The notes beneath the pieces were generated by a model. That model did not search any database, was not told where the DNA came from, and saw nothing but the letters and a program-made list of their open reading frames with translations. Below, one piece after another: positions 10,377 through 35,252 of a stretch of 37,313 bases of DNA. The stretch spans positions 1 through 37,313 of the forward strand of contig DASVWD010000120.1 in NCBI GenBank assembly GCA_036389795.1, written 5' to 3'. Position 1 is the first letter of the stretch, and the number at the start of each line of letters is the position of its first letter. The position numbers and the translations under genes are program-made. This stretch comes from Longimicrobium sp. Lineage in GTDB: Bacteria; Gemmatimonadota; Gemmatimonadetes; Longimicrobiales; Longimicrobiaceae.

Positions 10377-10413
10377 GCACTCCGCACTTCGCACCCCACA
10401 CTTCGCACTTCGG
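10377..10413. repeat. GCACTTC array, copy 1
   Basis: Degenerate tandem GCACTTC/GCACTCC/GCACCCC heptamers. The same short-period array recurs at 13437, 22557, 24694, 28257, 30697 (opposite sense) and 30924. Confidence 0.75.
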
Positions 10414-22556: not shown

Positions 22557-22607
22557 CGCACTTCGCACTTCGCACTTCGCACTCAGCACTCAGCATTCAC
22601 GCACTCC
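22557..22607. repeat. GCACTTC array containing the nadE stop codon
   Basis: GCACTTC heptamers grade into GCACTCAGCACTCAGCATTCACGCACTC. Read on the minus strand, its first bases AGTGCGTGA supply the last sense codons and the TGA of nadE. Confidence 0.8.
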
Positions 22608-24679: not shown

Positions 24680-24693
24680 GGGAACCGGGCCAG

Positions 24694-24724
24694 TGCGAAG
24701 TGCGAGGTGCGAAGTGCGAGCTTC
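24694..24724. repeat. GCACTTC-type array, inverted copy upstream of nadE
   Basis: On the plus strand it reads AGTGCGAAGTGCGAGGTGCG and so on. Together with the array at 22557 (opposite sense) it flanks nadE as an inverted pair. Confidence 0.75.
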
Positions 24725-27626: not shown

Positions 27627-28154
27627 TCACTGCGCGGCCGCGCGCGGGACGTAGCTCCCCACCGGCGCCCGGAAGCTCACCGCCAGGCGGTTCCACCCGT
27701 TGATGGCGACCACGGCGACGGTGAGGTCCACGATCTCGGCCTCGCTGAAGTGGCGCCGCACCTCCTCGAACACCTCGTCGGGCACGCCCGTGCGGCCGAC
27801 CTCGGTGACCGCCTCGGTCCAGGCGAGCGCGGCCCGCTCGCGGGGCGTGAAGAACGGCCCCTCGCGCCAGACCGGGATTGCGTACAGCCGCTGCTCGCTC
27901 TCGCCGGCCGCGCGCGCGTCCTTGGTGTGCATGTCCACGCAGTAGGCGCAGCCGTTGAGGTACGACGCGCGCAGCTTGACCAGGTGGATCAGCGAGTGCT
28001 CCAGCCCGCACTGGCGCACGTAGGCCTCCATCGCGAACTGCGCCCGCGCCGCCTCCGGCGCCACGCGGGTGTAGTCGATCCGCGGTCCGTGCGCGGCGGC
28101 GGCTTCCCGGCCGTCGCTCGCGGTAGGGACGGCGGTCGTTGCGGCATCCTGCAT
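27627..28154 (-). CDS. AhpD/CMD-type peroxidase-like protein (ECF41 target)
   Basis: A 175-residue carboxymuconolactone-decarboxylase-family protein of the AhpD-like type. The redox motif is Cys69-Ala-Tyr-Cys72 with His76 (NGCAYCVDMHT), preceded by the helix EHSLIHLVKLRASYL. The C-terminal half includes FTPRERAALAWTEAVTEV and INGWNRLAVSFR. The expected function is thiol-dependent peroxide or redox chemistry in the cytoplasm. GAGAGGT seven bases before the ATG at 28154 fixes the start. It is divergent from an ECF41 sigma factor, the family's classic neighbour, and has its own TGTCACA-N15-CGTC promoter, so it is very likely the sigma factor's main target. Confidence 0.94.
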   Translation of the reverse strand: MQDAATTAVPTASDGREAAAAHGPRIDYTRVAPEAARAQFAMEAYVRQCGLEHSLIHLVKLRASYLNGCAYCVDMHTKDARAAGESEQRLYAIPVWREGPFFTPRERAALAWTEAVTEVGRTGVPDEVFEEVRRHFSEAEIVDLTVAVVAINGWNRLAVSFRAPVGSYVPRAAAQ

Positions 28155-28230: not shown

Positions 28231-28256
28231 GACGCGGAGGGCGCGCGCCTGTGACA
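28231..28256 (-). promoter_or_regulatory. ECF41-type promoter for the CMD gene
   Basis: On the minus strand, TGTCACA (28256-28250), 15 nt, CGTC (28234-28231). The spacing is identical to the plus-strand promoter at 28300. It lies 77 bp before the CMD start codon, giving a leader of roughly 65-70 nt. Confidence 0.8.
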
Positions 28257-28286
28257 GTCGCACTTCGCACCTCGCACTTCGCACCG
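28257..28286. repeat. GCACTTC array inside the divergent promoter region
   Basis: GCACTTCGCACCTCGCACTTCGCACC lies exactly between the two -35 elements, so it may have been inserted there or may set their spacing. Confidence 0.75.
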
Positions 28287-28299
28287 GCGGACGATAGGC

Positions 28300-28325
28300 T
28301 GTCACACCCGCGCCTCTCGCCCGTC
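28300..28325 (+). promoter_or_regulatory. ECF41-type promoter for the sigma-factor gene
   Basis: TGTCACA (28300-28306), 15 nt, CGTC (28322-28325). The sigma ATG at 28334 is only 8 nt past the -10 element, implying a leaderless or near-leaderless mRNA and autoregulation. Confidence 0.78.
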
Positions 28326-28333
28326 TACGTGGC

Positions 28334-29224
28334 ATGATCGCACCCGACCCGTCCGGCATCTCCGCGGAGGTGCTGTCCCACCGCCCGCGGCTGCTCGGCC
28401 TGGCGTACCGCATGCTGGGCGACGCGCAGGAGGCGGAGGACATCGTGCAGGAGGCCTACCTGCGCTGGCTGCGGATCGACCCCGCCACGGTCCAGTCGCC
28501 CGAGGCGTGGCTGGTGACCGTCGTCAGCCGCCTGGCGCTCGACCGCCTGCGCAGGAGCGCCACCGAGCGGGCGGCGTACGCCGGCCCGTGGCTCCCCGCG
28601 CCCGTCGCCACCCCCTCGCCCGACGCCGGCGCGGAGCGCGCCTCCGACCTCTCCATCGCGCTGCTGATGCTGCTGGAGCGGCTCGCGCCCGAGGAGCGGG
28701 CGGCGTTCCTGCTGCGCGACGTCTTCGACACCGGCTACGCCGAGATCGCCCACGCGCTGGGGCGCAGCGAGGCGGCGGTCCGCCAGATGGTGCACCGCGC
28801 GCGGGAGCGCGTGCGCGCCGGCCGCCCGCGCTTCGCCCCGCCGCCCGAGGCGCGGGAGCGGCTCCTCCACCGCTTCCTCCAGGCCCTCGCCGACGACGAC
28901 CGCGACGGGGTGCTCGCCCTGCTCGCGCCCGACGTGACCTTCACCACCGACGGCGGCGGCAAGGTGCCGGCGGCGCGCAACGTGGTGTCCGGCGCCGACC
29001 GCGTCTGCCGGTTCGTGCTGGGGCTGGAGCGCAAGTACGGCGGCCGGACCGGGCACCGCGTGGCCCCGGTCAACGGCCATCCGGCGCTGCTCACCTTCTG
29101 GGAAGGCCGCCTGCTCGCCGTCACCGAGCTGGCGATGGACGGCGAGCGCATCGTGGCCTTCTACCGCGTGATGAACCCCGACAAGCTGCGCCACGCCGCG
29201 GACTCCGCCCCGGAGATCGAATGA
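28334..29224 (+). CDS. ECF41-family (SigJ-like) RNA polymerase sigma factor
   Basis: A 296-residue ECF sigma factor of group ECF41. Region 2 (about 10-80) contains LLGLAYRMLGDAQEAEDIVQEAYLRWL. Region 4 (about 115-165) contains DTGYAEIAHALGRSEAAVRQMVHRARERV. A SnoaL-like C-terminal extension (about 180-290) replaces a separate anti-sigma factor. It has both family hallmarks, DGGGK near residue 217 and NPDKL near 281, which tune activity in this group. It is divergent from the CMD-type gene, and both genes have matching ECF41 promoters, so the pair forms an autoregulated unit. The signal that changes the extension's state is unknown. The start codon lies just after its own -10 element. Confidence 0.95.
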   Translation: MIAPDPSGISAEVLSHRPRLLGLAYRMLGDAQEAEDIVQEAYLRWLRIDPATVQSPEAWLVTVVSRLALDRLRRSATERAAYAGPWLPAPVATPSPDAGAERASDLSIALLMLLERLAPEERAAFLLRDVFDTGYAEIAHALGRSEAAVRQMVHRARERVRAGRPRFAPPPEARERLLHRFLQALADDDRDGVLALLAPDVTFTTDGGGKVPAARNVVSGADRVCRFVLGLERKYGGRTGHRVAPVNGHPALLTFWEGRLLAVTELAMDGERIVAFYRVMNPDKLRHAADSAPEIE

Positions 29225-29590
29225 CCGCCGGGCGCTGAGGACCGGGCCCCGAGGACGGCTGATCCCATCTTGCAGAGCCTCGTCCCGGAACAGGTCCTGA
29301 AAGGCCTCACACAGAGGAACAGAGGAACAGAGGACTTCTCCGTTCCTCTGTTCCTCTCTGTGGTCCAATCGGTTTCTGCTCTATCTGGACCCCCGTTCGG
29401 AAATCCCCCACACCTCCCGCGGCCTGTGGTGCTCCTCCCGGCGCGGGCGTCCGCCTCCGCCCGCCATCCGCTTCCGCCGCCCTCCCGACAGACGCTCCCC
29501 CGCGCGGGCCGTAGCTTCCGGGCCGAATCGGGAGTGAACCGAGCGCCGCGCTGGATGCGCGGCTTACGCCAGAACGGAGCGACACGAGCA
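29225..29590. other. Intergenic gap with hairpin repeat
   Basis: It holds the hairpin repeat 29304-29363; the rest shows no gene. No clear promoter was found for the multicopper oxidase; GGAG at about 29576 precedes its ATG. Confidence 0.5.
29304..29363. repeat. Long-arm hairpin repeat, copy 6
   Basis: CCTCACACAGAGGAACAGAG-type left arm with a tandem AGAGGAAC 8-mer, loop ACTTCTC, and a GTTCCTCTGTTCCTCTCTGTG-type right arm written on the same strand. It lies 79 bp after the sigma-factor stop. Confidence 0.75.
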
Positions 29591-30923: not shown

Positions 30924-30960
30924 TCCGCACTTCGCACCCCGCACTTCGCACTTCGCACTG
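30924..30960. repeat. GCACTTC array, opposite sense
   Basis: GCACTTCGCACCCCGCACTTCGCACTTCGCAC, then GATATC. With 30697-30753 it forms an inverted pair about 170 bp apart that bounds the gap between two convergent genes. The enclosed stretch shows no gene. Confidence 0.75.
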
Positions 30961-30967
30961 ATATCAG

Positions 30968-32383
30968 TCACGTCGCGATGCGCAGGCGTGCGGCCGGGTC
31001 GCCGAAGAGCATGTAGTTCTGCGCGTCGCCGCGCATGAGCCAGGTGTCCAGGAAGCGCGCCTTCAGCCGCTCGTTCCACTGCAGCCTGCCGCGCTGCTGC
31101 TGGTCGTAGGTGTGCGTGATCTGCGCGTTGCACGTACTGTAGCGCATGTTCATGTCCTGCATGGCCAGGCCGGCCGGCTGGACGCCCAGCAGCTGCTGCA
31201 GGGCGCTCTTGAAGGGGGCGATGCGCTCGTGCCAGCGCTCGAGGAAGGGCGGCGGGGCTTCCGAGGCCGCGAAGCCGAGCAGGAAGGCGATGTCGACGTG
31301 GCCGATGAACGCGATCGGCCCCCTGGGGTGGGCCAGGAGCTTCCTGGGCAGCGCGGCGACGAAGTCGGCGTCGGTGTGCTGCTCCGGCACGCCCTTGATC
31401 CAGTGCGTGGAGTCGCTCAGCGCGGGGGTGCCGTACCCGTAGCAGGCGAACTGGAAGAAGACCGCTCCCTCCAGGAACGGCTGGTCGAGCGGCACGTCGT
31501 CCCCCGTGAAGAGCGCGTCGAGGCTGAGCTCGCCGGCGTGCTGGCAGCAGATCGCGCCGTTGAACCGCCTCTGCACCTCGGCGGGCGCGCCCGCGGCCCC
31601 CAGGCCGTGGCTGGCCGTGTAGACCAGGGCGGGCCTGCCGGCCTGCAGCGCGCTCAGCAGCCCGGCCTTGGTCGCCTCTTCGCCCACGACCACGCGGGTG
31701 GAGAACCGCAGCTCGTCCCGGACGTACTCGGCCAGGGGCTCCACCATCTGCCGCCGGCTGTAGTGGGTGGGGTCGGGAAAGCCCGCGTCGGGAGCGAAGA
31801 GGACCGCCTCTTCCCGCACGACCGGCTCGGCCGCCGTCTCCAGGCGGATCAGCTTCTCCACGTACTGCCGCAGGTCGTCCGGCGTGTCGAAGGCCACGCG
31901 GCCCACGTTCGCCACCGTGTCCAGGACGGACTGGAAGAGGAACGGCACCTGCTCCGGCCCGCCCACGATCAGCACGTACTGCGGCACCTTCGCGCCTTCC
32001 AGGCCCAGGGCGTAGTAGTTCTGGTGCAGCCACTCGAGCCACTGCTCGGGCGGCTCGCCCTGGTAGAGCAGCGGCGCGGCGGGGTCGGACATGCCGCGAT
32101 GCCGCGCCAGCGGCTCCAGGACGCGGGCGATCTCCCCGATCTGGGGATCCGCGGCGTTGGCCAGCCAGGTCCATCCGGCGGCCCGGGGGTCGCCCGGATC
32201 CAGGACGGCGCGCGCCCGCTCGCCCCGCAGCCTGGCGGCTTCCTGCGTGGCGCGGGTCAGGCCCTGCACGCGCTCCGCGTTCGCTTCCAGGGCGCTCACC
32301 AGGCCCTCGAACACCTCTTCGTCGTCCCTGGGAGGGAACAGCAGCCGGCCGTCGAGGTCGAGCCCCAGACCCATGACCTTCAT
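30968..32383 (-). CDS. Clan CD (gingipain/C25-like) caspase-fold protein
   Basis: A 471-residue protein with the hallmarks of a caspase-fold cysteine peptidase. The catalytic His is probably His259 in LVYTASHGLG and the Cys is Cys314 in FFQFACYGYG, each ending a hydrophobic strand, at the usual clan CD spacing. LAHPRGPIAFIGHVDIAFLLGF near 350 is a further conserved-looking block. The N-terminal 100 residues are helical and charged. There is no signal peptide, so it likely acts inside the cell. AAGGAG six bases before the ATG at 32383 sets the start. It lies 406 bp downstream of a CHAT-TPR gene on the same strand, separated by a MITE-like element. It may process a specific protein or act in abortive defence; both are inference. 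Confidence 0.78.
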   Translation of the reverse strand: MKVMGLGLDLDGRLLFPPRDDEEVFEGLVSALEANAERVQGLTRATQEAARLRGERARAVLDPGDPRAAGWTWLANAADPQIGEIARVLEPLARHRGMSDPAAPLLYQGEPPEQWLEWLHQNYYALGLEGAKVPQYVLIVGGPEQVPFLFQSVLDTVANVGRVAFDTPDDLRQYVEKLIRLETAAEPVVREEAVLFAPDAGFPDPTHYSRRQMVEPLAEYVRDELRFSTRVVVGEEATKAGLLSALQAGRPALVYTASHGLGAAGAPAEVQRRFNGAICCQHAGELSLDALFTGDDVPLDQPFLEGAVFFQFACYGYGTPALSDSTHWIKGVPEQHTDADFVAALPRKLLAHPRGPIAFIGHVDIAFLLGFAASEAPPPFLERWHERIAPFKSALQQLLGVQPAGLAMQDMNMRYSTCNAQITHTYDQQQRGRLQWNERLKARFLDTWLMRGDAQNYMLFGDPAARLRIAT

Positions 32384-32789
32384 CTCTCTCTCCTTTGTCT
32401 GCGTGGGATGAGGACGTAGCACACTTCGAGCTGCGAGCGAAAGCAGATCAATCGGCCATGGCAGATTCCCCAGGCGATCGTGCGACCATGGAGATGTCAT
32501 TCCGAGGGGGCGTCCTCACGAGACTTCCCTCCGCCCCAGAGGCTGGACGCGGCCGAGAAATCTGCTCCGCGTGCGAGCGAGCTCGGTCCGTTGCGACTGC
32601 CCTCGTGCCAGGGTGAGTAGATTCTTCGGTCGCCGCCCGGCTTCATCGCGTTCACGGGTCGGTGCGGCGGCTCCCTCGGAATGACGTTCAACGGTGCTGG
32701 TGGGCGGGAACAACCTGCGGTTCGTCGTCCGAGATCCGTGACCAGATCATGCATCGGAGCTTCCGCCACGTACCAACCGATCTTCCGAC
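32384..32789. other. Gap holding a MITE-like element
   Basis: The inverted-repeat element at 32496-32685 occupies nearly half. The remainder has no recognisable gene; AAGGAG for the downstream minus-strand gene is at 32390-32395. Confidence 0.55.
32496..32685. mobile_element. MITE-like inverted-repeat element, about 190 bp
   Basis: Perfect 13-bp terminal inverted repeats GTCATTCCGAGGG (32496-32508) and CCCTCGGAATGAC (32673-32685). Inside them is a second, imperfect inverted pair (CCGAGAAATCTGCTC and GAGTAGATTCTTCGG). It carries no coding region. It could be a non-autonomous transposable element or a large hairpin repeat; no target-site duplication is obvious. Confidence 0.6.
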
Positions 32790-35252
32790 CTAGCGCTTGC
32801 GGATCTTCACGATCCGCTCGCCGCTCACGAGCCAGCCCTCGCCGCCCGCCTGGCGCTCGCCCGCGAAGTTTTGCAGCGGCAGGACGGCGCCTTCCGGCTC
32901 GCCTTCCCACAGGACGTCCCCCCCGCAGAAGGCCGGGCCGGGGAACCGGGGTCCGTCCGGCTCCGGGGCGAAGCCGTGGAAGGCGTTGCCCACCAGCACG
33001 AACCCGCTCCAGTTCCACCCTTCGCTCCAGAGGATGCTCCGGCGCATCTCCGCCTGCGCCAGCTGCAGGGCCTCGGCGGGAGAGCGCCCGCCCTCCCGCA
33101 GGCCCAGGTAGAACTCCTCCATGAACGCGGCGGCCGCGTCGTCGCGGATCGGCCAGAGGCTCACCAGCACGCAGCGGGCGCCCGCCACGAGAAAGCTGTG
33201 GGCGAGGTTGATGTAGGTGTCGGGGTGGGGGCTGCCCAGCCCCGTCTGGCAGCCGGAGAGCGTCACCAGCTCGGCGCGGGTCGTGAAGTCGTCCCCCATC
33301 AGCTGGTACGCGAACAGCGCCCCCGGCCCTCCGCCGGGGGAGGCGGCGCCCGGCCGCGGGGCGGGAGAAGGGGCGAGGACCAGGAACGACAGCTCCCCGG
33401 AAACCAGGTGCCAGTAGCCGTGGGTCGCCAGGTGCAGGACGCCGGCGGCCGTGGCGGCCGCGCGCACGGCGGCGGGGTGCGCCTGCGGCCCGGTGAACAC
33501 CGCGCCGTCCAGGAGCTCGGCCACGCGCCGCACCTCCTCGCGCGTGCCGGGGAGCTCGCAGAAGCTCAGGGAGAAGGTGGGAGCGTCCGGGAGGGGGAAC
33601 GCCGGGATCTCGACGGTCTGCGGCCCGCAGTCCCCGATGGCGGCGGCGGGGACCTGGAAGCCCGCCAGGCCGCGCCACGCCTCGGGGTCCCGCCGGCGGT
33701 CCAGCTGCATGAACACGCCCACCGAGGGCGTCACGCAGACCTGCCACCGGGCGCCGAGCGAGGGGCCCTCCGCCGGGCCGAGCGCCGCCCACGGCACGTG
33801 GAAGTAGCTGCGATGGGGGACGACCAGCAGGCGGCCCTCTCCGCTCTCCAGCCGCTCGCGCACGCCCGCCGGGAACAGCGCCTGGTAGAGCGCCGCCAGC
33901 GCCTGCTGGAGCTCGTCCCAGGAGACGCGCGCCGCGGGCCCGTGGGCGCGCACTTCCCGCGCCTCGCCCGCGGGCGGCGGGGAGCCCGCCTCGTCCGGCG
34001 GCAGCAGCAGCCCGATCACCCGCTCCAGGGCGGCGCGGGCCGGCCCCGCGTCCCAGGCGTCCACGCGGCCGTCGGGGCCGGCGAGCCACGCCAGTGCGGT
34101 GTCGCCGGTTTCCAGGATCTTGAACAGGTGCGCGTCCGCATCGCGCAACGCGGACCGGATCTCCGCCCGGCGGGGCGCGTCCAGGGTCACGCGCCCGTTG
34201 TCGGCGGCGCGGATGGTGCGCTCGCCCTGGAGCTTGATCCGGTGGCGGAACATCAGGTCGAGGAGCGCGCGCCCCTGCCCGCGCTCGGAGGCTTCCAGCG
34301 CCTGCTCGGCGCGGCCGTGGCGGAACAGGAGGGCGGCGTACTCCTGGCTCACGCCGGCCAGCTGCTCCATCCAGTGGAACCGCTCCGCGCCGTCCAGGCT
34401 GCCGCGCCGGGTGTCGACCAGGTCCAGGCATTCGTCGTACAGCGCCAAGGCTCTCTCCCACTCCCCTTTCGCGGCCAGCGCCCGCGCCAGCTCGTACGCC
34501 CTCTCCAGGAGGTGGCGGTCCTGCCGCTCCTTCGAAGCCTGGTAGGCCCGCTCCAGCGCGGGCAGCTCCTCCTCCTGCGTCCCTCCCAGCATCCGCCGGA
34601 CCTGCGCGAGCGCGCTCTCCGCCTCTTCGACGTAGTCCGGAACGCCGGTCTGGCGCGCGCAGTCGAGCGCCTCCTCCAGGTGCGTCAGCGCCTGCGCCGG
34701 CTGCCCGTCGTGCAGGGCGATCTTCGCCTGCTGGAAGCGCCACGACCGGCGGAGCTCGGGGTCCCGCCTGACGCGCTCGTCCAGCCCCTCGAACTCCTTC
34801 AGCCGCTCGCGCGCCTCGTCGAAAACCCCCATCCCGGCATAGTGGTTGGCCAGCTGCAGCAGGGTGGCTCCCTCGCCGCGCGCATCCTTGCAGTCGCGGT
34901 ACGCCTCGAGCGCATGCCGGTAGTGGTCGGAGCAACGCTGACGGCTGTTCATGTAGCCGTAGACGTTGCCGAGGTTGAAGTGGGTGCGCGCCACGCCGGC
35001 CTTCTGTCCCCGGCTCCCGTAGACCAGCAGGGCCGCGTTGAACATCCGCTCGGCCAGCTTGAGGTTCCCGGACTCGGCCAGCGCGGAGCCGTAGTTGCCG
35101 CAGAAGTCCGCGTACTCGACGCTCGACCGGTCCTCTTCACCGAACAGGGAGAGGCATTGCGCGAAAAGGGGGAGGGCTTCGGCGGGTCTGCCCTGGTCGT
35201 ACAGGCGCGTTGCCTCGGCGAGAAGGTGTTTCCGCTCCTCGGCTTGTTGCAT
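32790..35252 (-). CDS. TPR-CHAT caspase-like protein
   Basis: An 820-residue protein. TPR-type helical repeats fill about 1-330: EATRLYDQGRPAEALPLFAQCL, HFNLGNVYGYM, LAAKGEWERALALYDECLDLV and others. A linker follows, then a C-terminal CHAT domain (about 480-775). The CHAT dyad is His611 in LHLATHGYWHL and Cys668 in VTLSGCQTGLG, followed by FLVAGARCVLVSLWPIRDD, typical of the family. The last 45 residues form a beta-rich tail ending in GERIVKIRKR. CHAT proteins are caspase relatives, some activated through their TPRs by a partner. GAAGGGA before the ATG at 35252 supports the start. It is upstream of the C25-like gene. Target and trigger are unknown. Confidence 0.92.
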   Translation of the reverse strand: MQQAEERKHLLAEATRLYDQGRPAEALPLFAQCLSLFGEEDRSSVEYADFCGNYGSALAESGNLKLAERMFNAALLVYGSRGQKAGVARTHFNLGNVYGYMNSRQRCSDHYRHALEAYRDCKDARGEGATLLQLANHYAGMGVFDEARERLKEFEGLDERVRRDPELRRSWRFQQAKIALHDGQPAQALTHLEEALDCARQTGVPDYVEEAESALAQVRRMLGGTQEEELPALERAYQASKERQDRHLLERAYELARALAAKGEWERALALYDECLDLVDTRRGSLDGAERFHWMEQLAGVSQEYAALLFRHGRAEQALEASERGQGRALLDLMFRHRIKLQGERTIRAADNGRVTLDAPRRAEIRSALRDADAHLFKILETGDTALAWLAGPDGRVDAWDAGPARAALERVIGLLLPPDEAGSPPPAGEAREVRAHGPAARVSWDELQQALAALYQALFPAGVRERLESGEGRLLVVPHRSYFHVPWAALGPAEGPSLGARWQVCVTPSVGVFMQLDRRRDPEAWRGLAGFQVPAAAIGDCGPQTVEIPAFPLPDAPTFSLSFCELPGTREEVRRVAELLDGAVFTGPQAHPAAVRAAATAAGVLHLATHGYWHLVSGELSFLVLAPSPAPRPGAASPGGGPGALFAYQLMGDDFTTRAELVTLSGCQTGLGSPHPDTYINLAHSFLVAGARCVLVSLWPIRDDAAAAFMEEFYLGLREGGRSPAEALQLAQAEMRRSILWSEGWNWSGFVLVGNAFHGFAPEPDGPRFPGPAFCGGDVLWEGEPEGAVLPLQNFAGERQAGGEGWLVSGERIVKIRKR

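Follow-up and report, generated by a model that had tools for sequence, protein, structure and literature searches.

Divergent ECF41 sigma factor and CMD genes of a Longimicrobium sp. with paired putative TGTCACA-N15-CGTC promoters and a predicted leaderless sigma mRNA

A gene of the carboxymuconolactone-decarboxylase (CMD) family and a gene for an ECF41 sigma factor were found in divergent orientation in the 37,313-nucleotide stretch of Longimicrobium sp. DNA analysed here (the window), with a pair of ECF41-type promoters in between, each of which points at its own gene. The arrangement is very probably an ECF41 one-protein signalling locus, i.e. a self-regulated sigma factor with two promoters, a CMD target and positive autoregulation. 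The parts of the locus are as follows.

27627-28154, minus strand: CMD/AhpD-like gene (PF02627) with the CxxC sequence CAYC; start codon ATG at 28154; presumed to be the only enzyme target
28231-28256, minus strand: putative ECF41-type promoter of the CMD gene, TGTCACA-N15-CGTC, TGTCACAGGCGCGCGCCCTCCGCGTC
28257-28299: spacer of 43 bp separating the two -35 elements, consisting partly of CGCACTT/CGCACCT heptads
28300-28325, plus strand: putative ECF41-type promoter of the sigma gene, TGTCACA-N15-CGTC, TGTCACACCCGCGCCTCTCGCCCGTC
28334-28336, plus strand: sigma start codon ATG, at the position where transcription is predicted to begin on the basis of mapping in S. meliloti (ninth nucleotide after CGTC)
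28334-29224, plus strand: ECF41 sigma factor of 296 amino acids, with sigma2 at residues 14-76, sigma4 at residues 109-159 and a SnoaL-like extension at about 179-259

Judged from its sequence, the sigma factor is of the ECF41/SigJ type. The sigma domains matched by Pfam were only the ECF-type sigma2 and sigma4 (PF04542 at 14-76 and PF08281 at 109-159), and a SnoaL_2 match at 179-259 (E 1.7e-5) reached 25.8 bits, just below the curated threshold of 27. A preliminary description of this DNA had named a SnoaL-like extension with DGGGK and NPDKL; both motifs were found in the C-terminal part of the protein. The NCBIfam SigJ subfamily model scored 319 bits (cut-off 271), and the structure of M. 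tuberculosis SigJ (5xe7) aligned over nearly the full length, with residues 15-285 (E 1e-57). The genome encodes one ECF41 sigma factor, its next best sigma relative being 33% identical, over sigma2-sigma4 only; the closest named relatives are from Gemmatimonadota and point to this phylum for the genome. Of the features by which ECF41 sigma factors are recognised, the domains, the C-terminal extension, the CxxC CMD neighbour, the promoter motif and the lack of an adjacent anti-sigma gene were found here.

The CMD-type neighbour was likewise recovered, as profile searches of its product gave matches to the Pfam CMD family (E 6.8e-21) and to the AhpD core (TIGR00778, E 2e-15). The products scanned in the neighbourhood were NAD synthase, SLFN_AlbA_2, alpha/beta hydrolase, CMD, multicopper oxidase, C25-like and TPR-CHAT proteins; none of them was an anti-sigma factor, in agreement with the earlier claim that the locus operates without a separate one. 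The C25-peptidase-like gene adjoins the TPR-CHAT protease gene at 30968-35252 of the window (minus strand). An inverted repeat of the CAGAGGAACAGAGGAA type was observed just 3' of the sigma gene at about 29310-29365 and might be a terminator or a dispersed repeat.

Control of sigma activity by the C-terminal extension has been published for other members of the group (PMC3426412, PMC8999054). In the mechanism proposed here, the SnoaL-like extension would act as a built-in regulatory domain, so that a separate anti-sigma factor would not be needed. Some signal would relieve the extension, and RNA polymerase with the sigma factor would then recognise both copies of TGTCACA-N15-CGTC and transcribe the divergent CMD and sigma genes, resulting in positive autoregulation. 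The CMD protein, as a CxxC, AhpD-like enzyme, is probably antioxidant or detoxifying. We infer the binding at two sites, the feedback and the function of CMD from sequence, the drive on both genes being read from the motif; the earlier proposal that one sigma factor drives its target and itself is supported to this extent. If the sigma gene were driven by its own product alone, basal expression would have to come from elsewhere, and this counts against the reading.

The preliminary description had placed TGTCACA-N15-CGTC once on each strand between the two genes, each copy directed at its own gene, and had suggested a genome-wide search for the regulon. Both copies were confirmed at 28231-28256 and 28300-28325, and in the 7,516,773-base genome the exact motif gave two matches, both at this locus, with 0 matches for the reversed control. 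Shuffled windows gave a mean of 0.09 matches, even when spacers of N13-17 were allowed. A wider regulon was rejected, since scans with relaxed motifs yielded either no excess over the control or no convincing promoter. With one mismatch, 28 further sites were found versus 55 for the reversed control; the pattern TGTCACR-N14-17-CGTC gave four additional sites, all with TGTCACG and other spacers, and no start codon of a long frame was present 8-10 nt 3' of any of these four.

For comparison, public genomes were sampled for ECF41 loci; the group labels Gamma, Alpha and Actinomycetes refer to the genome on which each sample was centred. Among relatives from Gemmatimonadota, from the Gamma- and Alphaproteobacteria and from the Actinomycetes sample, the motif was present 5' of the sigma gene, the CMD gene or both; viral copies were not found. 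Both promoters were present in 5 of 10 divergent CMD loci, a set in which L014 and L086, counted as two, look identical in sequence. The motif was restricted to the sigma side in L014/L086 and L162, and to the CMD side in L013 and in L074, the closest orthologue (same genus, 65% identity). Paired promoters are thus not universal, and, with L074 and L013 carrying the motif only at the CMD side, autoregulation of the sigma gene does not seem to be obligatory.

The mapped transcription start of S. meliloti lies 9 nt past the ECF41 motif (PMC3616915; sequence in PMC6180224). In the present locus, the ninth nucleotide after CGTC is the A of the sigma start codon (28334), which predicts a leaderless mRNA for the sigma gene; the rule derives from one mapped promoter of another phylum with a 16-nt spacer versus 15 nt here, and the leader lengths of R. 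sphaeroides and B. licheniformis fit it only if the tabulated distance starts at the -10 element. The CMD ATG lies 76 nt past CGTC, shortly 3' of the Shine-Dalgarno-like GAGAGGTG, and from a predicted start at about 28222 the CMD leader would comprise about 68 nt. It is likely from this geometry that the CMD transcript has a leader and a ribosome-binding site and that the sigma mRNA begins directly with its AUG, in which case two products of one regulator would be translated by different routes.

An in-frame ATG or GTG 8-10 nt past CGTC was found in 16 of the 33 non-redundant sigma-side promoters, and out of frame in none, versus 0 of 34 non-redundant CMD-side promoters (Fisher p about 1e-6, uncorrected for relatedness; the 65% identity cut used for non-redundancy only partly removes dependence among related sequences). 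The 16 promoters span Gemmatimonadota, Gammaproteobacteria (Lysobacteraceae), Alphaproteobacteria and the Actinomycetes sample. At most CMD-side promoters the in-frame start was 25-76 nt away, often behind a Shine-Dalgarno-like stretch. ATG or GTG triplets 6 nt after CGTC, counted in all frames, occurred 13 times in the 34 CMD-side promoters (L015, L096, L105, L108, L141 and others); this suggests a preference at the initiator, with G as the ninth nucleotide, rather than a start codon. It seems an even question whether self-driving ECF41 sigma factors are commonly leaderless by promoter placement across phyla, with the CMD target keeping its leader and ribosome-binding site. Roughly one half of the surveyed sigma promoters have no close start, which counts against the leaderless prediction for the present sigma gene. 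In the main texts of the open-access literature, leaderless transcripts and ECF41 were found together only in the S. meliloti transcription start paper.

Three other explanations were considered. Apart from the shortness of the motif, nothing speaks for the pair being chance matches, which is extremely improbable: 0.09 matches are expected in the window, the 7.5-Mb genome has exactly two, both at this locus, and none for the control, and the motif recurs in relatives. The CMD promoter might be the only functional ECF41 target, the sigma gene being transcribed mainly from another promoter without meaningful autoregulation. L074 and L013, which retain the motif only at the CMD side, agree with this, as does the predominant published layout, in which the sigma gene lacks a motif of its own (PMC3426412). 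For the present locus it is nevertheless improbable, as the sigma-side motif is perfect and, apart from its partner, unique in the genome, and as the close spacing to the ATG is found again in other lineages, always in frame. Alternatively, both promoters might work and the sigma mRNA might not be leaderless, either because transcription starts at another base or because translation starts at a later in-frame GTG, which is found 44 nt past CGTC; in L084, a member of this clade, the sole start codon lies at 41 nt. We consider this rather unlikely, given that no start codon lies between the upstream stop and 28334 and that the ATG at 8-9 nt is the only plausible start before the conserved sigma2 in L018, L020, L022, L024-L028, L083 and others. 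The N-terminus predicted from the start at 28334 is MIAPDP.

Should the sigma mRNA prove leaderless and the CMD mRNA leadered, regulator and target would differ in how their translation is initiated, the asymmetry would make accumulation of the sigma factor depend on conditions in which leaderless translation is favoured, and the start-site annotation of such sigma genes would be fixed. As a testable rule, the promoter would direct transcription to begin at the start codon itself in about half of the surveyed ECF41 genes with a promoter of their own, and in no surveyed target.

Nine Gemmatimonadota sigma factors, including the present one, formed a clade (FastTree support 0.98) in which all detected promoters had N15, whereas elsewhere a 16-nt spacer predominated, with 17 nt in part of the Actinomycetes sample. 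In the sequences compared, the 15-nt spacer marks one Gemmatimonadota ECF41 clade; L088, outside this clade, likewise has a 15-nt spacer. The length of the sigma linker was rejected as the cause, as a crude measure, with many sequences unmeasured, failed to separate the N15 and N16 groups.

The gap between the -35 elements was 43 bp here, 2 bp in L034 and L113, 20 bp in L037 and 97-101 bp in L083 and L084. A shared operator between the promoters was rejected, since these gaps differ among loci and their sequences are unrelated. The 2-bp gap of L034 and L113 should block simultaneous binding of two polymerases; for the 43-bp gap of this locus such a block is less clear. Tandem repeats of CGCACTT-type heptads were dispersed throughout the genome (271 overlapping CGCACTTCGCACTTCGCAC matches versus 0 for the reversed control), with clusters in the window at 28258-28284, between the two promoters, and at 10383, 22557-22582, 24693-24718 and 30926-30958. 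Other divergent loci showed no conservation of the heptad-bearing spacer (28257-28299). In L083, the region separating the divergent promoters (1332-1432) contains a long inverted repeat (CTCACGCGGAGGCGCGGAGAACGCGGAGAA...), so that repeats fill the promoter spacer there too, of another kind.

ECF41 was described by Wecke et al. (2012), with COE neighbours, the motif TGTCACA-n16(+/-1)-CGTC and the lack of an anti-sigma gene (PMC3426412). Among their 55 divergent loci, the motif preceded the sigma gene in 36 and the COE gene in 41, and the COE promoters of B. licheniformis (assayed in B. subtilis) and R. sphaeroides were activated by the sigma factor (PMC3426412). The present locus belongs to the published '<ECF< >COE>' class, an arrangement already described in 2012. 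It shares with these loci the C-terminal extension, the CxxC CMD neighbour, TGTCACA/CGTC before both genes, the lack of an anti-sigma gene and the single target. It differs from them in its 15-nt spacer, which falls inside the published 16 +/- 1, and in the sigma promoter abutting the start codon, a feature absent from the main text of Wecke et al. The promoter elements are also shared with R. sphaeroides RSP_0606-ecf41 and S. meliloti SMb20029-rpoE9, where the CMD gene is the sole detected target; for the S. meliloti sigma factor RpoE9, a single target, the CMD gene, has been reported (PMC6180224). In S. meliloti, the CMD and sigma genes are co-directional with one mapped promoter before CMD, and the R. 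sphaeroides operon has been called orthologous to it, whereas the genes are divergent here, with separate promoters. M. tuberculosis SigJ (5xe7) resembles the present sigma factor in domain layout and in sequence over the aligned residues. A known design is thus confirmed in a little-studied phylum, and the close sigma start and the N15 marking one Gemmatimonadota clade are two details, read from sequence, that go beyond the initial finding.
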